Assembly: GCA_016212095.1 (NCBI GenBank)
Contig: JACRHH010000025.1
Location: 1-64,000 of the forward strand
Reading direction: 5' to 3'
From: Nitrospirota bacterium
GTDB lineage: Bacteria > Nitrospirota > Thermodesulfovibrionia > SZUA-242
DNA length: 64,000 nucleotides
Shown here: in pieces, positions 12,975 to 58,548 of the stretch
Layout: every line of letters begins with the position of its first letter
Numbering within the stretch: the first letter of the stretch is position 1
Translations under genes and position numbers: made by a program
The notes under the pieces: generated by a model
Databases searched by the model: none
What the model was told of the DNA's origin: nothing
What the model saw: the letters and a program-made list of their open reading frames with translations, nothing else

Positions 12975-12980
12975 CTGCAA

Positions 12981-38106: not shown

Positions 38107-39162
38107 ATGAAATGCATATATCGAGTTGAATGCGTTACAGAATTAGCTTCAATTAGTCGTCTGGAACATTCATGGACTTTAATGTGTGAATCTAATCGGA
38201 AGCTAACCCATTTCCAGTCATATGCGTGGAACGCAGGGATGCTATTCAATGGCGCTTATCAAGGTAGATTTATTGTATATCTTTTATATAAAAATGATGA
38301 GCTGGTTTTGATAGCGCCTATGCAGAAGTCCCGAAATGGCCCTGTGTATGATCTGACATTTATGGGTCATGATACACACGCGGATTACCTGGACTTCATA
38401 TACGAGGAAATCAACAAATCCGATCTTGAATATTTTCTGAAATATTTGCAAAAGCAACACAGGTGTTCGACTGTGAAGCTTTCGTTTATCAATGAGGCCA
38501 GCAGGACAGTGGAAGTATTGTCCAGGTTGAGCCTTCAGGTTGCGCATGAAACAGAAAGATGTGCCTCGATTCGATTGCCACTCACACGGGAGATGTATCT
38601 CGACTGTCTTGGGAGCAGCACTAAAAGAGAGATTCGCGCAGGTAATAACAAGTTGCGTCGCAACTTTGATGTTCAGTATTACACGTCTGTATTTGGTGAA
38701 AAGCTCGATGATAAGCTGGTCGAAAAACTATTAGGTTTATATGCTGACAGGGTATCAGAGAAAGCTGGCAGTTTTAGATTTGATTCAAATTACATGTTAT
38801 TTTTAAAAAATTATATCTGTCAGCATGAAAATGCATTCGCACATGTTTTATATCTGGATGCGAATGTTGCAGCGTTTAATATTGGATTTTATGACAGGCA
38901 AGGCATGGCAACTGTCTTGTTGGTATCGATGGATTCGCGATATAGGGCATTTAATGCAGGAAACATGCTTTTGTATCATGCTGTAAGTTCATTGATTGAG
39001 ATGAAACATGATGGTGTTTACGATGCTGCTTGCTATGACCTTACCAGGGGTGATGAGCTTTATAAATTTAAATATGGTGGAAGATTGCATTATAACCATA
39101 CCTATGTCTATTCTTACAGCAAGTTGCTATACAGAATGAGAATGAAGATGGGGATGGCATAA
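38107..39162 (+). CDS. CelD/FemAB-like GNAT acyltransferase
   Basis: The 351-residue protein matches the acetyltransferase family found in polysaccharide loci (CelD/BcsL, 'GNAT_acetyltr_6' type). Key stretches are TKREIRAGNNKLRR and a C-terminal GNAT half (HVLYLDANVAAFNIGFYD, AFNAGNMLLYHAVSSLIEM, YDLTRGDELYKFKYGG). It probably adds an acyl group to a sugar. The ATG is directly preceded by TATAAT, so the true start or the promoter call is uncertain. It overlaps the next gene by one base. GC content is low. Confidence 0.8.
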   Translation: MKCIYRVECVTELASISRLEHSWTLMCESNRKLTHFQSYAWNAGMLFNGAYQGRFIVYLLYKNDELVLIAPMQKSRNGPVYDLTFMGHDTHADYLDFIYEEINKSDLEYFLKYLQKQHRCSTVKLSFINEASRTVEVLSRLSLQVAHETERCASIRLPLTREMYLDCLGSSTKREIRAGNNKLRRNFDVQYYTSVFGEKLDDKLVEKLLGLYADRVSEKAGSFRFDSNYMLFLKNYICQHENAFAHVLYLDANVAAFNIGFYDRQGMATVLLVSMDSRYRAFNAGNMLLYHAVSSLIEMKHDGVYDAACYDLTRGDELYKFKYGGRLHYNHTYVYSYSKLLYRMRMKMGMA

Positions 39163-40259
39163 TGCCCGCCGATACAAAGGTTATTGCTGTTGAAAGAGCG
39201 TGGTGGCATTTTTCTGCCCACTCGGGTTATGCGCAGTTCATAAAATATCTTGATGGTGACATTGATGCCGAGCTTCTTCGTATTCCTGAAGGCCGTTCAG
39301 ATGCATCTGAAAGTCTTATACGTTCAGTATTTGCGCGTTGTCATTACAAATATCGTCTGAGCAAGCCGACAACGATAAATGATATTCTTGCGGAATATAC
39401 AATTATTACGAAAGTTGAGCAATCACTGAAGGATCATGAGAGAGTCATTGTACATTTCTTAGATGGAGAACATGGTTACAATCGACTGGTAAGGATCGCA
39501 AATAAAAGACGTATAAACAGAAAGCGTTTCAAGGTTGTTGCGACATATCATCAGCCGCCTGCAGAACTTTGCAAGACATTTTTGCGCTATGACAGGTTAT
39601 CTGATCTGGACATGGTGATTGTCCTTGGAAGCAATCAAGTGAAATATTTCAGTGATTATGGCGTTGCAGGCAAGCTTCGGGTTATTCCACACGGCGTGGA
39701 TGTAGATTTTTTTACTGCAAACACGTCTGGAATTGATCAGGAGTACGCGTGTATAACAGTTGGGCATTGGCTTCGCGACTTTCGTGCCTTGAATGCGGTA
39801 ATAGAGTCATCAGACAGCCGAATCAGGTTTCATGTAGTTGCATACCCCGAAGTGATCGAACAGTTTGGATTCAAACGAAGTCCTCGAATGGTGTTGCATA
39901 CTGGTATAAGCGATGAGGCTCTTATTGCATTATACAGAAGCTCAATGGTAGGGTTTATGCCTCTACTCGACGGTGTGGCGAATAACTCAATACTTGAGAT
40001 GATGTCTGTCGGATTGCCTATCGTAACAACTGATGTTGGAGCCGTTAGGGAGTACACTGCTGATGGAACAGCCGTACTATGCGCCAATGGCGATGTAACT
40101 GATATGAGAAACAATATTGAAAGATTAGTATTCGACGATAATCTGAGGCTCACCATGGGAAGGCGTGGACGTGAAAGGGCTTTGTCATTAAGTTGGCGTA
40201 ATGTAGCCAAAATGATGAGTGAGGCATATAAAGAGCTGTTTGAAGGCGGCAAGGTTTGA
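39162..40259 (+). CDS. Glycosyltransferase family 4
   Basis: The 365-residue retaining-type GT-B enzyme has an N-terminal acceptor domain and a C-terminal nucleotide-sugar domain. The latter contains VIPHGVDVDFF near residue 178 and the EX7E-like region SILEMMSVGLPIVTTDVGAV. The 3' end overlaps the methyltransferase start. Its sugar is unknown. Confidence 0.88.
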   Translation: MPADTKVIAVERAWWHFSAHSGYAQFIKYLDGDIDAELLRIPEGRSDASESLIRSVFARCHYKYRLSKPTTINDILAEYTIITKVEQSLKDHERVIVHFLDGEHGYNRLVRIANKRRINRKRFKVVATYHQPPAELCKTFLRYDRLSDLDMVIVLGSNQVKYFSDYGVAGKLRVIPHGVDVDFFTANTSGIDQEYACITVGHWLRDFRALNAVIESSDSRIRFHVVAYPEVIEQFGFKRSPRMVLHTGISDEALIALYRSSMVGFMPLLDGVANNSILEMMSVGLPIVTTDVGAVREYTADGTAVLCANGDVTDMRNNIERLVFDDNLRLTMGRRGRERALSLSWRNVAKMMSEAYKELFEGGKV

Positions 40260-41059
40260 AGCTCGGTTCATTATATAATTCAACAGCATCTGGCCACCGG
40301 GACGTTTTCGAGGACGTGCATGTGGTTAAGGATTATGCTGATGCCTCATATCTCATGAAGCCGGAAGAATCTATCCTGAAGCTTTTCAGCGATGAATGGA
40401 AGAGCTTCAGGATGCTTGACATAGGGGTGGGTGGAGGGCGCACCGTCTCAAGTTTTGCTCCCTTGGTACGGGAATATCATGGGGTGGACTTTTCGGAAAG
40501 CATGATCGTAGCTTGCCGTGACAAATTCGAAACCAGTTTCAGTAATGCTTCTTTTAATGTGTGTGACGCGAGGCAGATGTCAATTTATCCCGCCAAGCAT
40601 TTCGATTTTATTATGTTTTCATTCAACGGAATTGACACAATGACATTTGCCGATCGCAGTGCGGTATTCAATGAGGTAGTTCGTGTTTCCAAGCCCGGAT
40701 GCAGGTTTTTCTTTTCTACTCATAACATTCATACGGTTCCGTGCATGTTCAATATCAGGATGTCTTGGGTAATCAGGATGCATTTAAGCAAAATCCGTGA
40801 AGTATTGCTTTTAAGGAGAATGAATCCGGCTTGGCGCAGTTTTGTTTCTGCGTCGTATGCGCATATTCTGGATGGAGCGCATGATTTCAGGGTTTCTGTC
40901 TGTTATGTCAGACCGGATGAACAGTTGAAGGAGCTGGAACGGCATGGTTTTAGCGACATAACGATATATTCTTTGGTAACCGGGAATATGATTTCAATTT
41001 CTCAGGCAGCAGGTTCGTGCGATCCTTGGCTTTATTACCTGTGCAGTATTCAGAAATGA
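40256..41059 (+). CDS. SAM-dependent methyltransferase
   Basis: The 267-residue class I methyltransferase has the SAM loop MLDIGVGGGRTVSSFAPL, motif II YHGVDFSESMIVAC, and FDFIMFSFNGIDTM as motif IV. A TTG start (40256) overlapping the previous stop is chosen because GGCAAGG lies upstream. It probably methylates a sugar of the glycan made by neighbouring enzymes. Confidence 0.85.
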   Translation: MKLGSLYNSTASGHRDVFEDVHVVKDYADASYLMKPEESILKLFSDEWKSFRMLDIGVGGGRTVSSFAPLVREYHGVDFSESMIVACRDKFETSFSNASFNVCDARQMSIYPAKHFDFIMFSFNGIDTMTFADRSAVFNEVVRVSKPGCRFFFSTHNIHTVPCMFNIRMSWVIRMHLSKIREVLLLRRMNPAWRSFVSASYAHILDGAHDFRVSVCYVRPDEQLKELERHGFSDITIYSLVTGNMISISQAAGSCDPWLYYLCSIQK

Positions 41060-41122
41060 CGGTGCGTTCGCTAGGCAGATATCATTATATGCAAAATTAT
41101 CTTATAGTGATTGAGGTTGCTG

Positions 41123-42580
41123 ATGATTAGGATCGGTCGGATTGGTATGGATGAGATCAAAAATATTGCATTATCCGTAGTAAGTAAATTTACGTATGGA
41201 ACGGGATATTGGGCCATCATTGTTGCCTTCCTGATATCAAGAACGTTATTTCACATTTTGGGAATCAGAATGCTTTGGGCAAGTGAACACGAGCTTAGCA
41301 TTTTTTGGCAGCATCTGGATATGGAATGGTTGAAAACTGATTTCATACGATCATTGTATTATCTTCATGGTCAGCCCCCTCTTTTTAATGCGTTTCTTGG
41401 CTTGGTAATTAAAGTATTCCCCAATTATCATGCTGTTGCATTCAAAATTATCTACGCAGTGATCGGATTATGCCTTTATATGGGTCTATATGTTTTGTCT
41501 TGCAGATTTGGTGTTAGGGCGTGGCTTTCATTTATTGTCACGTTAGTATTTATGATAAGTCCATCGGCTATTGCCTATGAAAACTGGCCAAGATACACGT
41601 ATGTCGTTGCATCTTTTCTGCTTCTTTCAGTGTATTTTCTTGATTATTATATTGCGCACTCGCGCAAACGGTACCTGTTAGCGTTTTGTGTCTTGATTGC
41701 CTCTGTTGCGCTTAGCAGGAGTGCTTGGCATCTTGTTTGGGTGGTTGCTTCGTTAGGTATAGTGGCCCATGGCTTGAGGCAGCGATACCGTATTATCGCT
41801 ATTTCAGGACTCGTGACGGTCTTACTTGTCGGATCCGTGTACATTAAAAACTATTACGAATTCGGTTTCTTTGGAACATCGTCCTGGATCGGAATGAATG
41901 TATCACGTATTACAACGTTTATGTTACCTTTGGATGAGAGAGCGAAACTTGTTAGCGCTGGAGTGCTTTCGCGATACGCATTAATCGAACCGTTCAGTCC
42001 TTTGGAAAAGTATGCAATTAACGATGAGTCTGGTTATGGGGCCGCAGCAATCAGGGAAAGACATAAGACTGGTGGAGGCGCTAATTTAAACAACAGTGCG
42101 TACATAGAAATATCAAGACGCTATATGGATGATGCAAAAAGATTTGTCTTTTTATATCCTGGCAACTATTTAAAATCAGTTTCCATAGCATTAAAACGAT
42201 ATATGACCATTAGTAGTAGCCATTTGCATCGTGTTATGGAACCCTTAGCAGGGTATGAATCTGTATTTAATGCGGTATTTTTCTGGGGGCCTATCAGGAA
42301 TATTTATCCGGTGATATGGATCTCTGTATTATTAACGACAGCTTACTCTGTTAGACGTGTGTTTGTTATAAGGCAGGACGTTCATTCGATTGTGACATAT
42401 CGTTATGTTGCATTGCTGCTGGTTTATGCGGATCTCATATTCACAGCGCTGGAATATGGAGAAAATAACAAGTTTCGCTTCGAAGTGGAGCCAATATTTA
42501 TTCTCATGCTTGCCGTTTATATCGAGGATGTAATTCGTTGTAAAAGCTTCTTGAAGCCTTGGAAAATATCAATGCTTTGA
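41123..42580 (+). CDS. GT-C membrane glycosyltransferase
   Basis: The 485-residue polytopic protein has about ten hydrophobic helices. The first lumenal loop is large and contains SEHELSIFWQHLDMEWL and the HGQPPLFN motif typical of PMT/ArnT-like GT-C enzymes, which use polyprenyl-phosphate sugars. The ATG at 41123 has GAGG six bases before it. It converges with an operon predicted to make polyprenyl-phosphoryl-arabinose, which makes it a candidate arabinosyltransferase. That link is inference. Confidence 0.75.
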   Translation: MIRIGRIGMDEIKNIALSVVSKFTYGTGYWAIIVAFLISRTLFHILGIRMLWASEHELSIFWQHLDMEWLKTDFIRSLYYLHGQPPLFNAFLGLVIKVFPNYHAVAFKIIYAVIGLCLYMGLYVLSCRFGVRAWLSFIVTLVFMISPSAIAYENWPRYTYVVASFLLLSVYFLDYYIAHSRKRYLLAFCVLIASVALSRSAWHLVWVVASLGIVAHGLRQRYRIIAISGLVTVLLVGSVYIKNYYEFGFFGTSSWIGMNVSRITTFMLPLDERAKLVSAGVLSRYALIEPFSPLEKYAINDESGYGAAAIRERHKTGGGANLNNSAYIEISRRYMDDAKRFVFLYPGNYLKSVSIALKRYMTISSSHLHRVMEPLAGYESVFNAVFFWGPIRNIYPVIWISVLLTTAYSVRRVFVIRQDVHSIVTYRYVALLLVYADLIFTALEYGENNKFRFEVEPIFILMLAVYIEDVIRCKSFLKPWKISML

Positions 42581-42612
42581 ATACTCATTTATCCCCGATC
42601 ATTCTTTCTAGA

Positions 42613-43359
42613 TTAGAGTCGTATCCGTAAAAAAACAACCTCCGGTATGTTTCGAATAATGAGCATTATCCATCGCCAGAACCACGGTAAGTAAACAGTA
42701 TTACTGCTTTTGTAAAATGCTTTATAAATCCCACTAGCTATTACATCAGGTTTTGCAAATAAGAAATTCTTTGCGATATTAGCTGTCATTGGCGTGTCGA
42801 CAAATCCAGGTTTGATGGTTACGACACTGACACCAGCTTTGTGCAAGCGTTGTCTCAATCCGGACAAGAATATTGACATTGCACCCTTTGCGGAGCCGTA
42901 AACATAATTGCTCTGCCTGCCACGATCACCGGCCACTGACGAAATTACTGTAATGCAACCGTGTCCAAGTTGTTCGAAATACGGTGCGATATAGGTGAGA
43001 ATTGCTGCCGAACTGGTGAAATTAATCCGGACAGCCCGTTCCATTTCATCGATATCCTGCTCGCAAAGATGCTGATCCGGAAGCGTTCCATGAGCAATAA
43101 GCAATCCATCGAGATCCGGATATTTCTCAAGACAGGTATCAATAGAAGATATAATTGAGTCGCTTGAAAGCGCATCAAAGTGAGAGAAGCATACTTCCTT
43201 AGCTCCCCTGATTAACAAATCGTCGGCCAACCGCTTAAGTTCATGTTCATCGCGTGCACATAAATATAACGATGAACCATGCTTTGCAAAAATCTTGGCT
43301 GTTTCATAGGCAATGGCGGATGTTGCACCGATGATTAAAATTTTATTGGAAGCTGTCAT
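42613..43359 (-). CDS. DprE2-like short-chain dehydrogenase
   Basis: The 248-residue SDR protein has the nucleotide motif ILIIGATSAIAYETAKIFA and the catalytic Ser-Tyr-Lys (ISSVAGDRGRQSNYVYGSAK). In the DprE1/DprE2 pair it reduces the 2-keto intermediate, completing epimerisation of polyprenyl-phosphoryl-ribose to arabinose. It overlaps the DprE1-like gene by four bases. It ends 32 bases from the convergent GT-C gene. Confidence 0.85.
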   Translation of the reverse strand: MTASNKILIIGATSAIAYETAKIFAKHGSSLYLCARDEHELKRLADDLLIRGAKEVCFSHFDALSSDSIISSIDTCLEKYPDLDGLLIAHGTLPDQHLCEQDIDEMERAVRINFTSSAAILTYIAPYFEQLGHGCITVISSVAGDRGRQSNYVYGSAKGAMSIFLSGLRQRLHKAGVSVVTIKPGFVDTPMTANIAKNFLFAKPDVIASGIYKAFYKSSNTVYLPWFWRWIMLIIRNIPEVVFLRIRL

Positions 43360-44690
43360 CTAAGTCTATGTACCCTTCTGTAAAAACTTGACGAAAATTT
43401 GGGGTCAATAAAAGCTTTGAACGAGTTGAAATCCGGGTAGGAAGCTTGAAATGTTTCTTCTGACATGCGTGAATCCTTGGCCGGGTATATTCTCCCCCCT
43501 GCTTTTATTACAACTGAGTCAAGATATTCCAGCAGAGAAAAGAGCTTTTGTCCAGCATTGGGGAAATCAAGAGCCAAAGTTATCCCTGGCATGGGAAATG
43601 AAAGCATACCTTCTTGCGGCTGGCTTCCAAATTCCTTCATTACAGCAAGAAATGATCCAAGCTTGCTCTCAATGATCTTATGAATAATTGTTTTTATCGC
43701 CATATTATCTGCTGTAACCGGAACAGCGCATTGCCATTGTAAAAAACCATTCTTTCCGTACATGCGATTCCAATTGGTGATCCCATCAAGCGGATAGAAG
43801 AACGTATCATAATGGACGATCCGTTTCTGATGCCTGAAAATCTGTTTGTGATAGTAAGCGGTGTTGAAAAGTTTGACCGTATGCCTAGAGAGAAAACAGG
43901 ATGGAGCGTCGCATGGAACTGATTTCCATGCCTGATAAGCATGCACGATTCCGCATGATGCACCATCAACGGATAACGGATGGTTTCCTCGCATGAAAAT
44001 GCCGCGCACGGGATATTTCCCGCCATACTGGCAGTCCAGCCATGAGACAGTATATTCATACCCGCTTGATTCTAGGGATATTTGAAAGAATTCATCAATT
44101 CCGTTGAATTGTATCGATTCGGCTTCGATGAGGGAGTTCATAATTGGACGTAGCGTTATTTCTGCCCAAAGAATAATGCCAGTCAAGCCAAGCCCGCCAA
44201 TTGTTGCGTGGAATAATTGACTGTTGGTATCTCTGCTGCAAAGATATCTTTCGCCGTCTGATCGCAGCAACTCGAAGCATCTGACATGCTTACAGAATGT
44301 ACCGGCAATGTGGTGATTCTTTCCATGAACATCGTTTGCAATGGCGCCGCCAATTGTTACATATTTTGTGCCGGGTGTTACAGACGGAAACCATCCTTTC
44401 GGAACAAAAACCTTCAATATTTCATCCAGTGTTACTCCCGCGTCGCATTTTACGACTCCGGAGACGGGATTGAAATCAATAAACTTGTCGAGCAATCTTG
44501 TTGAAATCAAATAACCATTTTGGTTTAAACAGGAATCGCCGTAGCTACGCCCTTTGCCGCGAGGCAAGACAGATACGTCAACCATTTGAATGAATATGTC
44601 AGCCTCATCGAAATTGCGCGGTACGTATTCACCTAGATGATAAACCTTCGGAAATCTTCCCCATGATTCATACAATGAGCACTCTTGCAT
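43356..44690 (-). CDS. DprE1-like FAD-dependent oxidase
   Basis: The 444-residue protein oxidises the 2'-hydroxyl of polyprenyl-phosphoryl-ribose. The FAD-binding stretch PRGKGRSYGDSCLNQNG, the family motif DVHGKNHHIAGTFCKHV and the C-terminal GGRIYPAKDSRMS all match DprE1. That C-terminal Lys corresponds to the catalytic Lys of the mycobacterial enzyme. It lies between the UbiA-type and DprE2-like genes in one operon, with a 2-base gap and a 4-base overlap. Confidence 0.88.
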   Translation of the reverse strand: MQECSLYESWGRFPKVYHLGEYVPRNFDEADIFIQMVDVSVLPRGKGRSYGDSCLNQNGYLISTRLLDKFIDFNPVSGVVKCDAGVTLDEILKVFVPKGWFPSVTPGTKYVTIGGAIANDVHGKNHHIAGTFCKHVRCFELLRSDGERYLCSRDTNSQLFHATIGGLGLTGIILWAEITLRPIMNSLIEAESIQFNGIDEFFQISLESSGYEYTVSWLDCQYGGKYPVRGIFMRGNHPLSVDGASCGIVHAYQAWKSVPCDAPSCFLSRHTVKLFNTAYYHKQIFRHQKRIVHYDTFFYPLDGITNWNRMYGKNGFLQWQCAVPVTADNMAIKTIIHKIIESKLGSFLAVMKEFGSQPQEGMLSFPMPGITLALDFPNAGQKLFSLLEYLDSVVIKAGGRIYPAKDSRMSEETFQASYPDFNSFKAFIDPKFSSSFYRRVHRLR

Positions 44691-44692
44691 GA

Positions 44693-45577
44693 CTAGTAAT
44701 TAAGGTAAATGATCATGACAAAAGAGCCTATCCACCCCAAAATAGCCAGTTGCAGGTATGAATCCCGAATGAGTAATTCTGCTGGCGCACCACTTGAATG
44801 CTGTACAAATGCCAATTGCATATAGCGAAATACTCCAAGCAATACGAAAAACGTTGTCAGATAAAGATGGTTAGAGTGAAGCTTTGATATGATTTCCGGT
44901 GAAACTGTATACATAATATAGGCAACAATGACAACAGAGGCCATAATTATCATTGAATAATCAATGAATTGAATATTGTAGCCGTCGATGCTTCTTCGTC
45001 TTACCGTGCTGTCCTTGATGAACAAAAGAACATCGTCTCTCCGTTTGCCCAAAGCAAGAAAAAGAGCAAGCAGAAAAGTCATGAGGATTATCCAGTGCGA
45101 GAGCTCAACACCAGAAACCATACTGCCTGCGAACAGCCTGATTACGAAACCGGATGCTACAATGAAAATGTCTACTATTGCGATATGCTTGAGTTTGACA
45201 GAATAGAAGACATTTATAATGAAATAGAATAACGCAAGATAAAAGATGTTTTCACCCATAGCAAGGAACATGGATAGTCCGGTGGTCAATAACACGGTAA
45301 GCATGAAAACCGCAGAGCGTTTTGAGATCTTGCCGGAAGCTAGTGGTCGTTTGCGCTTGACAGGATGCTGTTTGTCCTCATCAATGTCGTTGTAATCATT
45401 CATGATATACACCGCGCTTGCCGTGAGGGAAAAAGCTATGAAAGCCGCACACACTCTCCAAAACAGGGCTGTGTCGGTCATCCTGAGCGCGAAAAACTGT
45501 GGCAGAAAAATAAACAGGTTTTTCGTGTACTGATGGGGTCTAATCAGCCGGAGATATTCACGGATGCTGGTTTTCAT
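44693..45577 (-). CDS. UbiA-family polyprenyl-phosphate phosphoribosyltransferase
   Basis: The 294-residue membrane enzyme has about nine helices and the Asp-rich motif NDYNDIDEDKQHPVKRKRPL, followed by ASG. The HPxKxxRPxAxG extension is characteristic of decaprenyl-phosphate phosphoribosyltransferase (Rv3806c type) rather than quinone UbiA enzymes. A second motif region is DGYNIQFIDYS. It would condense PRPP with polyprenyl phosphate, giving the substrate for the DprE1/E2-like pair after dephosphorylation. The phosphatase is not seen nearby. Confidence 0.87.
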   Translation of the reverse strand: MKTSIREYLRLIRPHQYTKNLFIFLPQFFALRMTDTALFWRVCAAFIAFSLTASAVYIMNDYNDIDEDKQHPVKRKRPLASGKISKRSAVFMLTVLLTTGLSMFLAMGENIFYLALFYFIINVFYSVKLKHIAIVDIFIVASGFVIRLFAGSMVSGVELSHWIILMTFLLALFLALGKRRDDVLLFIKDSTVRRRSIDGYNIQFIDYSMIIMASVVIVAYIMYTVSPEIISKLHSNHLYLTTFFVLLGVFRYMQLAFVQHSSGAPAELLIRDSYLQLAILGWIGSFVMIIYLNY

Positions 45578-46935
45578 TTAAATTTGTGTTCCTGTGCATT
45601 TATTATTTCGTAATACCATTTCAAGTATGCGTCAGCCTGTGTCGCAAGATCGTATCGGATTGATGATGTCGCATGTGTCATATTCTTTTGCAGCTCTGGC
45701 TCATTGATAAAGCGCAAAATTGCCTCCGCCATCGCCTCGGCATTTTGTGGTGGCACTAGTAGTCCGGTTTCGCCGTCTTCGATTTGTTCCGGAATCCCTC
45801 CGACCGATGATGCTATTGCTGGCGTTCCGCAGGAAAGCGCCTCAATAACGGAATTGGGAAACGTATCCGCAAGCGCTGCATGCAGATATGCGTCTGCTGC
45901 TTGGTAATATCGGGACAGAATGCTTGGATTGCGTTGGAATGGCAGGAACAGCAAACGGAGATTGCCGATCTGTTCGGTTTCAGCGTCTTCGCCTATTGCC
46001 ATGAATACAATATTTTTTTCGCGGGATCGGTTGGCGACAATTGTGATTGCTTCCTTCATCGTCGTGTAGTCTTTCCACCTGTTGTTTTTAACATGGCTGG
46101 CGGTAAATATTAATAGAACAGCATTCGGCGGCAAGGCGAGCTCTTGGCGCGCCTCATTCTTTGGGTATGGATGAAATATAGTGGTATCCACTCCGTTCGG
46201 AATCACTCTCGCCTCGGTAACCGACTGGGCTAAAATCGATTGTTGCACTTTGTTCATCAGCCACTGGCTTGGAGTCGTAACATACAGTCGGCATTTTGCG
46301 TATATTTCACGTTTCCGTCGCCAGTTGAAGGCCGTGGCATCACGTTGTATGGCCGGATAGATTGTCAGGTCTGGACATTGACCGCACCCGGTTTTCCAGC
46401 GGTAGCAGTTGAAAGAATGTGCGCAGTGCCCGCTTAAGAGCCAGGCATCATGAAGCGTCATGATCACCGGAACTTCCGCGCTGAGTTTCGGCAGAAACCG
46501 CAGGTCGAAATAATCGCCATGCAGGTTATGAAGATGGGCTATCTCCGGAGTTCCAGGATAAAAGGACAGAATTTTGTGGCTGCCGCTGAAATGGAAGTTT
46601 TCCCGCCCTCTCTCGATGTCGATATCGGGACAACCGCCGGTTAAGCTACAGAGAAGATAGCGTATGAAACGAATACCGGGAACTTTGCCCCTCATGGATT
46701 GCAATAATGAGTGAGATTTACGAAATCGCTCTCCAAAATCAGTTTCAGCCGGAAACCTGGGAATTTCCACTACGCCATGACAGTCTGAATGTTTGAACCC
46801 AACGGCAAGACATGCCGAGTGTCCTTTTTCTCTGTACTTGTGGTGCAGGTTCCATGCTACTTTTTCGGCGCCTCCTGCGATATCGTGGGTATTGACCTGC
46901 ATTATTCGAAGTGAACGATCAGGCATGTCTGGCAT
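45574..46935 (-). CDS. Glycosyltransferase family 4
   Basis: The roughly 453-residue GT-B enzyme has the start RIMQVNTHDIAGGAEKVAWN, the acceptor-domain segment IMTLHDAWLLSGHCAHSF with a nearby Cys group (CYRWKTGCGQCP), and donor-site motifs RVIPNGVDTTIF and SVIEALSCGTPAIASSVGG. This cysteine-bearing form is common among GT4 enzymes of O-antigen loci. The ATG at 46935 is chosen; a second ATG at 46926 and a TTG at 46944 are possible. It overlaps the UbiA-type gene by four bases and so heads the arabinose operon. Confidence 0.87.
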   Translation of the reverse strand: MPDMPDRSLRIMQVNTHDIAGGAEKVAWNLHHKYREKGHSACLAVGFKHSDCHGVVEIPRFPAETDFGERFRKSHSLLQSMRGKVPGIRFIRYLLCSLTGGCPDIDIERGRENFHFSGSHKILSFYPGTPEIAHLHNLHGDYFDLRFLPKLSAEVPVIMTLHDAWLLSGHCAHSFNCYRWKTGCGQCPDLTIYPAIQRDATAFNWRRKREIYAKCRLYVTTPSQWLMNKVQQSILAQSVTEARVIPNGVDTTIFHPYPKNEARQELALPPNAVLLIFTASHVKNNRWKDYTTMKEAITIVANRSREKNIVFMAIGEDAETEQIGNLRLLFLPFQRNPSILSRYYQAADAYLHAALADTFPNSVIEALSCGTPAIASSVGGIPEQIEDGETGLLVPPQNAEAMAEAILRFINEPELQKNMTHATSSIRYDLATQADAYLKWYYEIINAQEHKFK

Positions 46936-47110
46936 TTGTAACAAAATCGAGATATGCCTGATTCATTTTTTGGGCGATGACAGCCATTGAAGCGCGCTTC
47001 ACAGGCTTCTCTCCACTAGGTTGAAAAATGTTTTTTGCATGGCGTTCGCGTCTTTCTGAGGAGTAAATGCTTTCTGTTACTTCTATACTTATTGGCAACG
47101 ACCTTCTGCA
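46919..47110 (-). pseudogene. 63-codon open remnant downstream of the deacetylase stop
   Basis: Directly after the deacetylase TAG, the same frame stays open for 63 codons (CRRSLPISIEVTESIYSS, then HAKNIFQPSGEKPVKRASM, then NQAYLDFVTNARHA) and stops with TGA at 46921-46919. That stop overlaps the start of the GT4 gene in the way operon genes do. There is no start codon with a ribosome site. It looks like the 3' end of a lost gene, or a C-terminal extension cut off by a stop mutation. No family was recognised. Confidence 0.4.
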
Positions 47111-48064
47111 CTATTCAAACGCATAATTGATATTTTCAATAAACAGGGTTTGATCCCAGTCATCAATATACATTCTCTTCAGGCTGAAAACATCTGTTGC
47201 AGTCGTGTTATAACCATGCACAGTTGTAACCGCCGACTTCATTCCAGCTTCCATGACTATTTTGCGCGGCACAGGCATTACGCTTCCACTGGTCACTTCT
47301 TTTTCATCGTAAGGGTATGAAAAATGTTTTATCGGGACATTAAGCCTTGAAGCAAGAACCCGTTTAGACTCAAGCACCTCATGTCTGGCATCATTCTCCG
47401 AGATACTGCCCAGACTAGGATGTTTGCATGAATGGGATCCTATCAACATTCCACCTATTAACATTGCGTCAAGTTCGTGCCAAGCCATAGGCCTATCGGT
47501 AAGATGGTCTTCCAACCAGACATCATCCCTATGATGCATTAAAGACAACATGCGTTCGCGTTCATCAACCGAAAGGTTCCTGAACCAACTGACAATGTTA
47601 AGCAGATGCAATTTTTTTAAGTGCGACGAAGAAAGATCATAAACATTGTTTCCAATTTGCAGTGACTCAGAGTTGGAAACTAAACGCTTGACCTCATCCC
47701 ACCAGAATAGTCTGTTCCCTCCAATGTAATCTGTTGCTACATAAAATATGGCTGGCAAATTATAATTTTTCAACACCGGCAATGCATAGGTGAAATTATC
47801 CGCATAGCCATCATCAAAAGATATTACGACCTGTTTTTTCTCAGCGAGTCGTCCTTCTAAATGTTGACGCTCGAACTCGTCCATGCTGATAACAGGGTAA
47901 TTCTTTGCAAGATGTGACATATGCGCAGCAAAATTTACCTCTGTAACCGCTATGCGGAACGGATTATCTGAAATATCGGGCAGGACTCGATGATACATGA
48001 GGATGACAACCCTAGCCGTAGAGCCTGATGTTTTGCGAACTAAACCTCTCCAGAACTTGAGCAC
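47111..48064 (-). CDS. Polysaccharide deacetylase (NodB-like)
   Basis: The 317-residue carbohydrate esterase 4 protein has ILMYHRVLPD near the start and the metal-binding FDDGYADN near residue 83. The second His motif is SHSCKHPSLG, and SYPYDEKE follows. It would remove N-acetyl groups from a glycan. A GTG start (48064) is used. It lies 86 bases from a divergent regulator and 190 bases ahead of the GT4-arabinose operon on the same strand. The TAG stop is followed by an open in-frame remnant. Confidence 0.87.
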   Translation of the reverse strand: MLKFWRGLVRKTSGSTARVVILMYHRVLPDISDNPFRIAVTEVNFAAHMSHLAKNYPVISMDEFERQHLEGRLAEKKQVVISFDDGYADNFTYALPVLKNYNLPAIFYVATDYIGGNRLFWWDEVKRLVSNSESLQIGNNVYDLSSSHLKKLHLLNIVSWFRNLSVDERERMLSLMHHRDDVWLEDHLTDRPMAWHELDAMLIGGMLIGSHSCKHPSLGSISENDARHEVLESKRVLASRLNVPIKHFSYPYDEKEVTSGSVMPVPRKIVMEAGMKSAVTTVHGYNTTATDVFSLKRMYIDDWDQTLFIENINYAFE

Positions 48065-48192: not shown

Positions 48193-48741
48193 ATGCTTGA
48201 AGGCGTGATTTCATCGAAGACGAAGGTAAATCTTTTCGTCAAACTGTTTCTGAATCCGGAAACGAGGGCCTATCTTCGCGAGCTGGCTTCGGAATTCAAC
48301 ATGTCCACCAATGCGGTTCGCACCGAGCTTAACATACTGAAAAAGAACAAGATTCTTGTTTCACAAAAAGACGGGCGGAATATTTATTACAGCGCGAACA
48401 GAACCCACCCGCTTTTCCCGGAGTTGTCCTCAATCGTAAGAAAAATTACTGGAATTGATTCTCTGGTTAACTCAATTGTTGAGCGATTGGGGAATTTGAA
48501 GGCTGTTTATCTGGCGGGTGATTACGCTCGTGGAGTGGATGCGGGAATCATAGACGTAATTCTTGTTGGAAATGTAAATAAGGTGCAACTGGACGATGTG
48601 ATCATGAAAACAGAAAGATACATCGGGCGCAAGATACGCGGTCTTGTGCTGGAGGAAGGCGAGTTTGATACGCTTGCAGCCAAGGGCGGGCTTAATCCTG
48701 TCATGATGTTATGGAAGTCTGGGAGCAACGAGGCGCGATAG
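48193..48741 (+). CDS. Winged-helix regulator with degenerate nucleotidyltransferase domain
   Basis: The 182-residue protein has an N-terminal winged helix-turn-helix (ETRAYLRELASEFNMSTNAV, LNILKKNKILVSQKDGR) and a C-terminal domain shaped like a minimal nucleotidyltransferase (AVYLAGDYARGVDAGIIDVI). The catalytic GS and DxD residues are lost (GDYARG and IID), so it should be inactive. The ATG at 48193 has TAAGG six bases upstream and gives the family-like start MLEGVISSKTKVNLF. An ATG at 48151 lies at the -10 box and over the palindrome, so it is unlikely. It is probably an autoregulator of the export operon. Confidence 0.78.
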   Translation: MLEGVISSKTKVNLFVKLFLNPETRAYLRELASEFNMSTNAVRTELNILKKNKILVSQKDGRNIYYSANRTHPLFPELSSIVRKITGIDSLVNSIVERLGNLKAVYLAGDYARGVDAGIIDVILVGNVNKVQLDDVIMKTERYIGRKIRGLVLEEGEFDTLAAKGGLNPVMMLWKSGSNEAR

Positions 48742-49598
48742 TGGCATCAGGCAAGGGCAGCATTATTACAGTTTACGAACCTGACCATGTTCGTAAGGCT
48801 GGCTTGGGTATCTGGGCCGAGATGTTTCGCGAGATATGGATGGCTCGCGGTCTTGTCTGGCGTTTGATGGTTCGCGATATTGTATCGCGTTACCGACAGT
48901 CGCTACTGGGCATTACATGGGCGTTTCTTTCACCACTTCCGGTGCTTCTTGCTTTTGTATGGATGAAGGAACGCACTGTATTGGCCATAGGCGAAACCGG
49001 CATGCCGTATCCGGTTTTTATATTTCTTGGGCAGATGGTTTGGCTTCTGTTTTCTCATGGCGTTACGGTTTCCACAGGTAGTCTTGTTTCTGCAGGAACG
49101 CTTCTTACCAAAATAAATTTTCCGCGTGAAACGCTTGTTCTGGCATCTCTTGGTCAGGCGGTCTTCGAGTTTGCGATACGGCTTCCGCTTCTGCTGGCTG
49201 TATTCATTTGGAGCGGATTTCTTCCTAAGGCATCGATTCTTTTGCTCCCGGTTGCATTGTTTCCCCTTTTGTTTTTGATTACCGGAGTCGGTCTGATACT
49301 TGCGTTGTTTAACGCTCTTGTCAGGGATGTCGGAAGCATTGTGGGTATGGCCATGACAATCGGGATGTTTGCGACGCCGGTTGTGTATCCTCCGCCAACC
49401 GGTTGGCCGGTATCCTTTTGGGTGAACCATGTAAATCCTGTAAGCGCTTTTGTGACCGCAACGCGTGATCTGGCTGTTTCAGGAAGGATCTCGGATCCGT
49501 CAGGCTACGCAGTGTCAGTCTTGATAAGCGTAATCATCTTTCTGACTGGTTGGAGAATGTTTCATCTGGCCGAGTCTAAAATCGCCGAGAAGGTTTAG
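48741..49598 (+). CDS. wzm: ABC polysaccharide exporter permease (Wzm-like)
   Basis: The ABC-2 type membrane subunit moves a lipid-linked glycan across the inner membrane. The protein of about 285 residues has a cytoplasmic N-terminus (WMARGLVWRLMVRDIVSRYR) typical of Wzm and six hydrophobic segments, ending in LISVIIFLTGWRMFHLAE. A GTG at 48741, with GAGG seven bases upstream and overlapping the regulator stop, is preferred. An ATG at 48711 would add ten residues but lacks a ribosome site. The ATPase follows five bases after its stop. Confidence 0.9.
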   Translation: MASGKGSIITVYEPDHVRKAGLGIWAEMFREIWMARGLVWRLMVRDIVSRYRQSLLGITWAFLSPLPVLLAFVWMKERTVLAIGETGMPYPVFIFLGQMVWLLFSHGVTVSTGSLVSAGTLLTKINFPRETLVLASLGQAVFEFAIRLPLLLAVFIWSGFLPKASILLLPVALFPLLFLITGVGLILALFNALVRDVGSIVGMAMTIGMFATPVVYPPPTGWPVSFWVNHVNPVSAFVTATRDLAVSGRISDPSGYAVSVLISVIIFLTGWRMFHLAESKIAEKV

Positions 49599-49603
49599 AG
49601 GCA

Positions 49604-50803
49604 ATGTCAGAGGTTTTGATCAACGTCAGTGGTGTTTCGAAAAAGTTCTGCAGAGATAGTAAATATTCGATGTTTTACGGGCTTAAAGACATTGCCGGTT
49701 CATTTTTGGGTGTGCCGTCCGATCCCGGAGATCTTAGAAATGGCGAATTCTGGTCTGTTGATGATGTTTCGTTTGAACTTCGCAGGGGCGATTGCCTTGG
49801 CCTTATCGGGCCAAACGGAGCCGGAAAATCCACGCTGCTGAAAATGTTGAACGGTATCATTATGCCCGACAAGGGGCGGATAGAGATTCGCGGCAGGGTT
49901 GGGGCGATGATTGAGGTTGGGGCCGGATTCCATCCGATGTTAAGCGGACGCGAAAACATATACATAAACGGGGCTATTCTCGGTTTCAGCAAGATGGAGA
50001 TCGACGCAGGTTTCGACGAAATAGTTGAGTTTGCCGAACTTCGGGATTTTATAGATTCTCCGGTGAAGCATTACAGTTCAGGAATGTATGTGCGGCTTGG
50101 CTTTGCGATAGCGGCGCAGATGAAGCCCGACATTCTGCTGATTGACGAGGTTCTGGCTGTCGGAGATGTAGGCTTTCGCGCCAAATGCTACAACCATCTT
50201 GCCGGAATGCTTAAGGACACGGCGGTTGTGATTGTTTCGCATTCGATTCCGCATATCGACCGCTATTGCAACAAGGTTTTCCTGCTGGCTGGCGGCAGGC
50301 TTGAAACAAATGATGATACGGCTGTGACAATCGAACGATATTATTCTCTTTTCGATCAGGAATCATCTTCGGTTATCGCCGGAAACGAGGGAAACAGCCT
50401 GCGCCACCTGAAACTTGAAGGCGGTTCGAACGATGCAGATGGAACCGTGAGGCATGGCGGGATGTTGAGGGTGCAAGGGGAGGTTTTTGTGGAACGCGCT
50501 GTCAAGAATCCGAATGTTTTGATAGCGTTTCTTAACAGGGAGCTTCAGGTTATAGCGGTATGCAGAACGTCTCCCGGCATATTGTTTAATACTGATGGCT
50601 TGGTGAAGTTCTCTGTTGATATATCGCCTTTTCTACTTAATGTTGGCGATTATAAAGTTTCCCTGATTGTTTACGATGAGAAATATCAGCGACACTTGCT
50701 TTGGCATAACGCATCATGGAGCATTCGCGTGATCGGTGATTCTATCAATTACGGCGGCGCTGCGGTCTATTTCGACGGGAAATGGGAGAGTCATGGGGCC
50801 TAA
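49604..50803 (+). CDS. wzt: ABC polysaccharide exporter ATPase with C-terminal extension (Wzt-like)
   Basis: The 399-residue protein has a nucleotide-binding domain: Walker A GPNGAGKST, the signature SSGMYVRLGFAIA, and Walker B ILLIDEVLAVGD. A beta-rich extension (about 255-399) resembles the carbohydrate-binding domain of Wzt proteins. That domain recognises modified glycan ends (for example methyl or phosphate caps) before export. Methyltransferases and a sulfotransferase follow in the same operon, which fits a cap-recognition mechanism. Confidence 0.92.
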   Translation: MSEVLINVSGVSKKFCRDSKYSMFYGLKDIAGSFLGVPSDPGDLRNGEFWSVDDVSFELRRGDCLGLIGPNGAGKSTLLKMLNGIIMPDKGRIEIRGRVGAMIEVGAGFHPMLSGRENIYINGAILGFSKMEIDAGFDEIVEFAELRDFIDSPVKHYSSGMYVRLGFAIAAQMKPDILLIDEVLAVGDVGFRAKCYNHLAGMLKDTAVVIVSHSIPHIDRYCNKVFLLAGGRLETNDDTAVTIERYYSLFDQESSSVIAGNEGNSLRHLKLEGGSNDADGTVRHGGMLRVQGEVFVERAVKNPNVLIAFLNRELQVIAVCRTSPGILFNTDGLVKFSVDISPFLLNVGDYKVSLIVYDEKYQRHLLWHNASWSIRVIGDSINYGGAAVYFDGKWESHGA

Positions 50804-55385: not shown

Positions 55386-56339
55386 ATGAAGAATTCAGGA
55401 AGTGCTATCGATCTGAGTATTGTTGTTCCTGTCTACAATGAGGAGGCTGTGATAGGTGTCTTCATCGCACGACTGATGCGCGTTCTAAAAGAGCTTCCCG
55501 AATTATTCGAGATCATAGTTGTTGACGATGGAAGTTACGATGGCACGTTCACCGAAATCCATCGTACTTCAGTCGGTAATTCGCAGATACGAGGGATCAG
55601 GCTTTCACGTAATTTCGGGAAGGAGGCAGCGATGTTGGCAGGTCTTGAGCGTTCTTTGGGCCGGGCCGTGGTGATCATTGATGGCGATGGGCAGCATCCG
55701 CCTGAGCTTATCCCGGATATGCTGGCAATATGGCGCTTGGGTGAGGCCGATTTGGTTTCAGCTTTCAAAAGAGAACGCAGTGCTGATTCGATGGTAGCCC
55801 GACTTAACGCAGCTATTTTCAACCGCGTAATGAAGCAACTAACCGGCCTTGATCTTGCCGGGGCATCTGACTTTCGACTTATGGACAGACGTGTTGTCGA
55901 TGCAGTAATCGCCATGCCGGAACGAGTACGTTTTTTTCGTGGTATGACGCTATGGGTCGGATTTCGTGAGGCGCGTGTTCCGTTTGACGTGTCGGAGCGA
56001 ATGGCCGGCAGTTCAAGCTGGACTTCGCGTGGCCTGATCAAGCTTGCAATTACAGCTATTACTTCGTTTACGGCAAAGCCGTTATCATGGGTATTCAGCT
56101 TTGGCTGTTTCGGATTGGCAATTTCAGTTGTGCTTACCTTGCAGGCTATGTATTCGTGGTTGCTTGGGATTGCGGTAAGCGGCTGGACATCGCTTACGAT
56201 GCTGATCCTTTTCTTTGGATCAGCAAATCTTATTGCTTTGGGGCTGCTTGGAATCTATATTGCGCGTGTTTTCGAGGAGGTGAAGCAACGGCCTGTTTAT
56301 CTGGTTCGGGAGACTACCGGTGAGTTGGCTGATGTTTAA
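55386..56339 (+). CDS. GtrB/DPM1-like glycosyltransferase family 2
   Basis: The 317-residue enzyme transfers a sugar from a nucleotide donor to polyprenyl phosphate. It has the GT2 start LSIVVPVYNEEAVIG, the metal motif DGDGQHPP, and a C-terminal pair of membrane helices (SFGCFGLAISVVLTLQAMYS, LTMLILFFGSANLIALGLLG). This layout is that of GtrB/ArnC. A GT-C protein (the next gene, overlapping by 20 bases) would then use the lipid-linked sugar. Confidence 0.9.
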   Translation: MKNSGSAIDLSIVVPVYNEEAVIGVFIARLMRVLKELPELFEIIVVDDGSYDGTFTEIHRTSVGNSQIRGIRLSRNFGKEAAMLAGLERSLGRAVVIIDGDGQHPPELIPDMLAIWRLGEADLVSAFKRERSADSMVARLNAAIFNRVMKQLTGLDLAGASDFRLMDRRVVDAVIAMPERVRFFRGMTLWVGFREARVPFDVSERMAGSSSWTSRGLIKLAITAITSFTAKPLSWVFSFGCFGLAISVVLTLQAMYSWLLGIAVSGWTSLTMLILFFGSANLIALGLLGIYIARVFEEVKQRPVYLVRETTGELADV

Positions 56340-58548
56340 CCCCGAACTGTTCAATAATCAGAATGTGGCGGCTGAATCCAGCGATGGCCGCGCCATATTG
56401 CCGAGGGCGAGCATACTCGAAGGGATGCCGATCTGGTGCAAGGTTGTTATTGTGCAACTGATCATATCAGCGATTTATCTTGTAGAAAATCACTTCATTT
56501 TGACCTGCGGGATGTTTTACATCGAAGAAAACGATCTCCTATTCCAATATCTTCCGGAGTTTTTCCTGCTTCAAAAAAGCCTCCATAGTGGATTCGTGCC
56601 TGTCTGGACGGATATAGTTGGGAGCGGCTTCCCTCTTGCAGGATACGGGCAGAACGCTTTGCTTCATCCCCTACAACTCATGGTCGCATGGTTTATTCCC
56701 GACCCCCTAGTCGGTTTGAAGTCAATGTTGTTCATGATTACTTTTACGGGCAGTCTTGTGTTTGTCCTGTCAATGCTGTTGATTGGTATCGATGATATTG
56801 TGTTGCTTATTTACGGAGCTGTTGCATACCATTTTTCATTCTTTTTCATGTACAAAGGCTATTCGCTGATATTGAGTTTTATTATGGCTCCCATGATTGT
56901 GGCTTTGCTATATAAACTTAGCATTGAGTCGGACAGTTTGCACAAGAAGACGTTCTTGTTTGGAGTGCTTGGCGGCATCTCGCTGTTGGCCTTGTATGCT
57001 CCATTTCAGCTACGCTTTTTCCTTGTGGTTTATGCCTGCGCTGTCTTTATGATATTAATCGTTGGCAATAGACGGTTATACAGAATAGGTCTGGTTTCGT
57101 TTGCATGTCTCATGGCTGTCGTGATCGCATACCCCCAATTCAAGCTTACATATGAGCTTGTCAAGGTCGGAGATATAAAGGCCAGAGGGCTTGAATTCCT
57201 GTTGGATGGCAGTTCCCCATTTGGTTTATGGAATTATTTTGCGAATTATAGCTTTTCAAGGGATCCGATTATATGGAGCATGCATTCCAAATGGAACAAC
57301 TCTGATCTATTGCCCCCGGTCTTTTTCCTGAGTATTTTTTCACTGTACAATAAATCGACGTTGACCAGATTTCTTTGGTGCATTGTAGCTGTAAGTTTTT
57401 TTATGGCGCTTGGGAAATATAATCCCGTTTATGTTTTCATGGCCAGACACGGGATGACATTGGATTTGCGCATCCCCGCTCGCTTTTTGTTCATGTTTAA
57501 CTTCACATTTCCTGTTCTGGCTATGATCGGATTAAACCAGTTGCGTCATCTAGGAGGCAAGGCCGTATTAAGAGTGATTGTCATTTATCTTTTGGCAATG
57601 TGCATTGTGAACCTGATGGCCGCGATGATTATTGATAACATGCGTGATGCCTATGGAACAAATCTCAAGATGTATACGCATTATTACTCTGATTTTTATG
57701 ATACGAAAATATATAACAGAAACAAGTTGTCGGCTATTGTCGGCATTGTTAGAGGTGCAAGTTGGAATCTGGATTTTTTAAAACTGTATCTATCCACATT
57801 TTCCGCTGCTGTGTTTGCGACGGTCATCATGGTTGCAATGTATGCTGTTGGTCGATTTAACCACCGCAAGTTGGTTCTGGCAATGTCCTGCTTGCTGATT
57901 TTTGAGGGGTTAGCATTGACTATGCCCAAAAACTCCGAATCAGCCAAAATGTTCAATGAATATTATTTCCCGGCCAAGTTTAATGGTGTGAGCAAAATAG
58001 CCGCATTGGAAGAGGACAGGATCAGAACCAATATCCGGTCATCGTTGAATATGGTTTATGATATAGCTGAATCAGATACATATAATGCAAGCTTGTATAT
58101 AAGTAAATATAAAGATTACCTGAATATTGCCAGAGTTAAGGCATCAAATTCAGATTATGAATATATGAAATACATTGGGGTGGACGGGATACTGACCCGA
58201 CAGGATTTAAGCAATTATATCTGGAAGCGGGATGTCGGAGACGGTTTTTCACTGTACAAGGTTAGCGACAAAGAGAATGTTGTCTGGTATCCGGATGGCA
58301 ATTCGTTCCGGCCTGTTGAAAACTGCCGGATCATTCGGAAAAATCCTGACTGGACGATTGATCTTACGCTTCCTGAAGGAGCGCGGGAAGTGGTTGTTTT
58401 CAGAAACTATTTCAAGGGATTTAACGTTTATGTTAACGGAGAACACGTCAGGCCGGATTTGTATTACTCGTTTTACCGATTCAGAGGTTTAAGGGCAGGC
58501 CGAAACACTATTGAAATTAAATGGTCATGGCCTGATCTTCTGTTGTGA
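56320..58548 (+). CDS. YfhO-like GT-C membrane protein
   Basis: The 742-residue protein has about 12 hydrophobic helices. The first large loop contains IEENDLLFQYLPEFFLLQKS and GFPLAGYGQNALLHPL, typical of YfhO-type proteins, which are implicated in transfer of sugars to surface polymers. A soluble C-terminal beta domain ends the protein (IDLTLPEGAREVVVFRNYFK, GFNVYVNGEHVRP). The GTG start lies inside the preceding GT2. It is a likely partner of the GtrB-like enzyme. Confidence 0.83.
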   Translation: MSWLMFNPELFNNQNVAAESSDGRAILPRASILEGMPIWCKVVIVQLIISAIYLVENHFILTCGMFYIEENDLLFQYLPEFFLLQKSLHSGFVPVWTDIVGSGFPLAGYGQNALLHPLQLMVAWFIPDPLVGLKSMLFMITFTGSLVFVLSMLLIGIDDIVLLIYGAVAYHFSFFFMYKGYSLILSFIMAPMIVALLYKLSIESDSLHKKTFLFGVLGGISLLALYAPFQLRFFLVVYACAVFMILIVGNRRLYRIGLVSFACLMAVVIAYPQFKLTYELVKVGDIKARGLEFLLDGSSPFGLWNYFANYSFSRDPIIWSMHSKWNNSDLLPPVFFLSIFSLYNKSTLTRFLWCIVAVSFFMALGKYNPVYVFMARHGMTLDLRIPARFLFMFNFTFPVLAMIGLNQLRHLGGKAVLRVIVIYLLAMCIVNLMAAMIIDNMRDAYGTNLKMYTHYYSDFYDTKIYNRNKLSAIVGIVRGASWNLDFLKLYLSTFSAAVFATVIMVAMYAVGRFNHRKLVLAMSCLLIFEGLALTMPKNSESAKMFNEYYFPAKFNGVSKIAALEEDRIRTNIRSSLNMVYDIAESDTYNASLYISKYKDYLNIARVKASNSDYEYMKYIGVDGILTRQDLSNYIWKRDVGDGFSLYKVSDKENVVWYPDGNSFRPVENCRIIRKNPDWTIDLTLPEGAREVVVFRNYFKGFNVYVNGEHVRPDLYYSFYRFRGLRAGRNTIEIKWSWPDLLL

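Follow-up and report, generated by a model that had tools for sequence, protein, structure and literature searches.

The convergent genes at 41111-46944 of the window, as the 64,000-nucleotide stretch of contig JACRHH010000025.1 from a Nitrospirota bacterium (assembly GCA_016212095.1) is called here, are read as a pentofuranose side-chain module. It would add D-arabinofuranose (D-Araf) in the periplasm to a glycan exported by an ATP-binding cassette (ABC) transporter, with a membrane glycosyltransferase of the GT-C class as the transferase. We put the probability of this reading at about 0.7. The enzymes are identified by homology, and genome context, in three unrelated genomes, ties the GT-C protein to them; the phosphatase, the flippase, the acceptor and the sugar are inferred. 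Mycobacteria are the best-known source of D-arabinofuranose, and the pathway to its donor is a drug target in them. The genes of the module are as follows.

41111-42580, plus strand: putative GT-C membrane protein of 489 residues, without a family match, assigned from an AlphaFold2 (AF2) model and cassette-linked homologues
42613-43359, minus strand: DprE2-like short-chain reductase, predicted to convert the 2-keto intermediate to arabinofuranose (NF005489; DprE2 in the PDB)
43356-44690, minus strand: DprE1-like flavin adenine dinucleotide (FAD) oxidase, predicted to oxidise polyprenyl-phosphate-ribose at position 2 (NF053785; DprE1 in the PDB; motifs)
44693-45577, minus strand: UbiA-type polyprenyl-phosphate phosphoribosyltransferase of 294 residues, stand-alone, with no HAD domain (NF008977; PDB 8j8j)
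45574-46944, minus strand: GT4 glycosyltransferase, first gene of the operon, overlapping the UbiA gene by 4 bp (Pfam PF00534/PF13692)

GT4, UbiA, DprE1 and DprE2 form a four-gene operon on the minus strand, running from 46944 to 42613 with intergenic gaps of -4, 2 and -4 bp. The GT-C gene converges on it, ending 32 bp from the end of DprE2. A preliminary description had placed the region at 41123-46935; the genes reach slightly beyond these bounds, GT-C beginning at 41111 and GT4 extending to 46944. The same description had proposed a UbiA, DprE1-like and DprE2-like operon headed by a GT4, and every gene was found as described, as were the motifs HPVKRKRPL (UbiA), HGKNHH (DprE1) and HGQPPLF (GT-C).

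UbiA scores 240 bits against the NCBIfam model for decaprenyl-phosphate phosphoribosyltransferase (NF008977), above the equivalog cut-off of 234, and its best PDB match is the decaprenylphosphoryl-5-phosphoribose (DPPR) synthase of Mycobacterium tuberculosis (8j8j, 9.7e-37). The best PDB match of DprE1 is mycobacterial DprE1 (2.5e-68); against the mycobacterial equivalog NF053785 it reaches 362 bits, a clear match that is still under the cut-off of 500, as is true of DprE1 in all other members of the class. Its FAD and active-site motifs are kept, HGKNHH and the Lys-Asp of AKDSR being conserved in 86 homologues. DprE2 exceeds the cut-off of NF005489 (304 versus 267 bits), falls under that of the mycobacterial DprE2 equivalog model (175 versus 250 bits) and has M. 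tuberculosis DprE2 as its best PDB match (1.7e-28). Family models and solved structures agree, and they support assigning the DPPR synthase, DprE1 and DprE2 steps to this operon. The proposal that this is the route of arabinofuranose supply in mycobacteria is borne out, all three enzymes matching their mycobacterial counterparts in NCBIfam and the PDB.

At the DprE1 position aligned with a mycobacterial cysteine, the window protein carries alanine, as do 82 of the 86 aligned sequences. We take this cysteine to be Cys387 (M. tuberculosis numbering), the residue bound by benzothiazinones. With alanine at this position, covalent benzothiazinone inhibition is therefore not expected in these bacteria.

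A functional link between the GT-C protein and the operon is supported by gene neighbourhoods elsewhere, since a gammaproteobacterium and an alphaproteobacterium each have a GT-C homologue within or beside this cassette. The gammaproteobacterial homologue (genome G1001, locus L146; 2.5e-81) is the last gene of the run HAD-UbiA, DprE1, DprE2, GT-C, with 16 bp separating it from DprE2, and is the only other match among 369 gammaproteobacterial genomes, a set chosen without regard to DprE1. The alphaproteobacterial homologue (genome G397, locus L057) directly precedes HAD-UbiA, DprE1 and DprE2, G397 being the sole carrier among 385 alphaproteobacterial genomes. A full-length homologue in genome G807 (6e-55) lies in a glycan cluster on a different contig from DprE1, and a search of 396 genomes of the phylum returned a single weak homologue (G244, 50 bits), whose cluster has no Dpr genes. 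Close homologues are rare. They occur in two of 51 genomes selected for DprE1 and two of 1147 others (Fisher p = 0.01), groups that differ in taxonomy; for this reason the argument is built on the adjoining genes of G1001 and L057. The functional link suggested in the preliminary description is therefore upheld by these homologues, while use of polyprenyl-phosphate-Araf by the GT-C protein stays putative.

Co-occurrence of the GT-C gene with dprE1, dprE2 and ubiA, which had been proposed there as a check, was seen in these two unrelated genomes but not in five DprE1-bearing relatives of the same class. Their lack of it rules out the GT-C protein as a fixed partner of DprE1, and it would therefore be one of several interchangeable partners. 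Two relatives (G011 and G058, loci L113 and L114) use others. Each carries three related membrane proteins beside its DprE genes, the two that were scanned having the sulfatase fold (PF00884); the loci also share a PMT_2 protein near the DprE operon, and their partner set differs from that of the window. Across 80 loci, a five-sequence profile detected no remote homology of the window GT-C to the other membrane proteins beside DprE1.

The GT-C protein has no sequence match in Pfam, NCBIfam or the PDB, and searches of plasmid and viral contigs were also without a match. Its full-length homologues share the invariant residues D70, Q88-P89-P90, R203, K246, N325, N327, E451 and N452. An AF2 model from five sequences reached a predicted TM-score (pTM) of 0.66 and a mean predicted local distance difference test (pLDDT) score of 65; an earlier model from four sequences (pTM 0.38) was discarded as too poor. 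In a Foldseek search, the first 23 PDB matches were nearly all GT-C enzymes or subunits of the glycosylphosphatidylinositol transamidase, and the matches included the oligosaccharyltransferase (OST) subunit STT3, ArnT, ALG9, Pmt, PglB and AftA. Probabilities were mostly 0.85-1.00 (near 1.00 for OST, ArnT, Pmt and ALG9, most of these at E-values of 0.003-0.2; 0.35 for AftA), with E-values of 0.003 or worse and TM-scores mostly of 0.30-0.46. The model supports a predicted GT-C fold, from which neither acceptor nor sugar can be read. GT-C enzymes carry an acidic residue behind their first transmembrane helix, for which the invariant D70 is a candidate.

The acceptor might instead be a protein, as in the arabinosylation of type IV pilins by TfpW in Pseudomonas paraeruginosa, where D-Araf on pilins made with the same biosynthetic genes has been published (PMC12369383). 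The best Foldseek matches do include oligosaccharyltransferases and protein mannosyltransferases; however, GT-C enzymes fold alike whatever their acceptor. No pilin was seen among the operon's neighbours, which are polysaccharide genes and an ABC exporter. A protein acceptor is on this evidence decidedly improbable. Around the module the following genes were identified.

38107-41059, plus strand: GNAT protein (PF13480), GT4 and methyltransferase in overlapping reading frames, upstream of GT-C, which begins 51 bp further on (Pfam)
47111-48064, minus strand: polysaccharide deacetylase family protein (PF01522)
48711-50803, plus strand: Wzm/Wzt-type polysaccharide ABC exporter, permease and ATPase, the latter with an extra C-terminal 150 residues (PF01061, PF00005, NF010065; PDB 6amx/8dku)
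55386-58548, plus strand: GtrB-like polyprenyl-phosphate-sugar synthase (PDB GtrB 5eke, 9.6e-69) and an overlapping membrane protein of 742 residues

The exporter lies 6 kb away. Beyond the operon there are also a sulfotransferase-like protein, methyltransferases and glycosyltransferases, and glycosyltransferase-like genes run on to about 71 kb of the contig. G+C content is 45% in the island at 38-58.5 kb versus 57% in the first 33 kb. The cluster looks like a locus for an ABC-exported surface polysaccharide. Immediately after the glycan genes, at 58554-63914, a protein of 1786 residues has ten LVIVD repeat matches together with Calx-beta, PKD and CARDB domains. The organism had been taken for an anaerobe, which fits the acetyl-CoA synthase (beta subunit of acetyl-CoA synthase/carbon monoxide dehydrogenase) encoded at 10758-12980, consistent with a Wood-Ljungdahl anaerobe.

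The GtrB-like synthase and the 742-residue protein, for which no family match was found, are probably a second periplasmic glycosylation pair using a lipid-linked donor. Their presence in the same cluster allows a different division of labour, in which the DprE operon makes polyprenyl-phosphate-Araf, the GT-C protein uses the lipid-linked hexose made by GtrB and Araf is moved by the 742-residue protein or another GT-C. The GT-C gene and the operon do lie on opposite strands, and DprE1-bearing relatives use other membrane proteins, such as the PMT_2 protein of L113 and L114. Against this, the homologues in L146 and L057 adjoin the DprE cassette in stretches where no GtrB homologue was detected, and we consider such a division unlikely. 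The GT-C protein is thus probably the enzyme that places arabinose on the surface sugar.

The second step of the pathway, a dephosphorylation, had been noted as lacking an enzyme here, and this holds more widely: no PAP2 or HAD phosphatase adjoins the operon in the window, and family searches, on which all genome-wide statements about this organism are based, did not find the usual HAD type in the genome. A profile of fused and separate HADs likewise had no match in relatives G002, G043 and G011, but found a separate HAD gene beside DprE2 in G058 and G042 (1e-41 or better). A search for PAP2-type phosphatases, which the preliminary description had advised, did yield four such proteins in the window's genome: a PAP2-PMT_2 fusion, a diacylglycerol kinase fusion, an LpxE-like protein and an undecaprenyl-diphosphatase-like protein. 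All are on other contigs, of other apparent types and unlinked to the operon, so none can be named as the step-2 phosphatase. An HAD reading frame beside a PAP2 gene on contig C29 was dismissed, its best match being a GMP/IMP nucleotidase. At locus L001 (genome G000, contig C9) a PAP2 phosphatase and a PMT_2/ArnT-like GT-C domain are joined in a single protein.

Since the HAD phosphoribose phosphatase is neither linked nor matched in the genome, the pathway might be incomplete or diverted to a product other than Araf. This is very improbable. DprE1 and DprE2 are intact and co-operonic with their motifs kept, the M. tuberculosis enzyme for the phosphatase step is itself unrelated to HAD (PMC11127046), the genome has its four PAP2 proteins, and the DprE1-bearing relatives G002 and G043 are likewise without an HAD match.

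The cluster showed neither a Wzx nor a MATE flippase. In relative G002 (locus L111, DprE1 at G002:C68:99566), a GtrA-family gene lies directly upstream of DprE1, which suggests a GtrA-type flippase in that organism. In 20 loci (L032, L034, L045, L062 and L071 among them), a membrane protein of 310-360 residues is encoded near, and often directly upstream of, HAD-UbiA-DprE1-DprE2; the two members that were scanned match LPG_synthase_TM (PF03706), and proteins of this type are candidate flippases for the lipid donor.

The mechanism proposed for the side-chain module follows Kelly et al. 2024 (PMC11127046). By homology, UbiA would transfer phosphoribose from phosphoribosyl pyrophosphate to polyprenyl phosphate, giving polyprenyl-phosphate-ribose-5-phosphate, which would be dephosphorylated by an enzyme encoded outside the operon and then epimerised at C2 by DprE1 and DprE2. 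The lipid donor would be flipped across the membrane by a flippase not linked to the operon. In the periplasm, as the gene context suggests, the convergent GT-C protein would move Araf onto a glycan that the Wzm/Wzt transporter encoded nearby had already exported.

Several observations weigh against this scheme. Assignment of the transferase to the GT-C class depends on a model of pTM 0.66 built from five sequences, and the homologue in L057 is without about 105 N-terminal residues, where the catalytic region is presumed to lie. A convincing GT-C homologue was present in one (G807) of 50 further genomes picked for DprE1, and in none of 60 class relatives, including all five with DprE1. The cluster also encodes a GtrB, which could provide another lipid-linked sugar. 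As for the missing activities, the profile search found no HAD phosphoribose phosphatase in the window's genome, family searches found no GtrA flippase there, and the MATE-like matches in the genome are three in number, weak and unlinked.

When one genome per species was searched for DprE1, more than 580 stretches encoding a relative of it were found, of which 80 were kept. These 80 are spread over Pseudomonadota, Myxococcota, Chloroflexota, Acidobacteriota and others, and where UbiA was found it is mostly a protein of 458-531 residues with an HAD domain fused at its N terminus; DprE1 and DprE2 come next. Across Gram-negative bacteria the lipid-Araf donor route is widespread, not unusual. Its presence in a Gram-negative organism is accordingly less surprising than the preliminary description implied, the cassette being both common and published in such bacteria (PMC11127046; PMC12369383). 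Within the class, true DprE1 is found in six of 61 genomes searched. In the DprE1 phylogeny that had been called for, the window protein and three relatives from the class form one group (support 100/99), so that recent transfer from outside the class is unsupported; the class members G002 and G043 form a deep, separate branch, a second lineage.

The pathway itself was already known in outline in Gram-negatives. The new elements are a GT-C family that has no model and is tied to the cassette, and the cassette's lack of a recognisable phosphatase. We tentatively suggest, at a little under even odds, that the GT-C protein represents a distinct family of arabinofuranosyltransferases for which there is no model, and of which it is the first member to be recognised. 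The family would accompany the Gram-negative DprE cassette from phylum to phylum, and in this organism its member would work alongside a UbiA that stands alone and a phosphatase not of the HAD type. The analysis adds evidence for the wide Gram-negative spread of the donor route, and points to a small GT-C family without a database model as the likely transferase. The DprE cassette and the D70/QPP family provide sequence markers for predicting D-Araf in uncultured bacteria.

Among known systems, the mycobacterial pathway (Rv3806c, Rv3807c, DprE1, DprE2 and the Emb/Aft enzymes) has, by sequence, the same three enzymes as the window. It differs in that the window DprE1 and DprE2 score under the mycobacterial equivalog cut-offs, the DprE1 cysteine position is alanine and the GT-C protein has no sequence match to Emb or Aft enzymes. 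Three-component pentofuranose systems have been described for O-antigens, including those of Citrobacter youngae O1/O2 (Kelly et al. 2024, PMC11127046). They comprise UbiA with HAD, DprE1/E2 for Araf, a MATE flippase, GT-C enzymes and an ABC-exported O-antigen; Araf-containing examples carry the DprE1/E2 homologues, and the GT-C enzymes finish the process in the periplasm (PMC11127046). The window shares with them a UbiA-type phosphoribosyltransferase, DprE1/DprE2, a GT-C protein and an ABC-transporter-dependent glycan cluster. Unlike them, its UbiA is without an HAD domain, an HAD of that kind was not found in the genome and no MATE flippase is linked in the window. The GT-C protein, of about 490 residues, matches no family model and is set apart by description from the 652-residue GT136 enzyme ORF12 of Citrobacter; at 489 residues it leaves no room for a C-terminal carbohydrate-binding module of 150 residues such as that at 503-652 of ORF12. 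P. paraeruginosa PA7/Pa5196, in which pilins are glycosylated with D-Araf through PSPA7_6245-6251 and TfpW (PMC12369383), resembles the window as a Gram-negative system supplying D-Araf on a polyprenyl carrier to a GT-C transferase, TfpW being compared by description. The acceptor there is a pilin, whereas the window operon stands in a polysaccharide export cluster.

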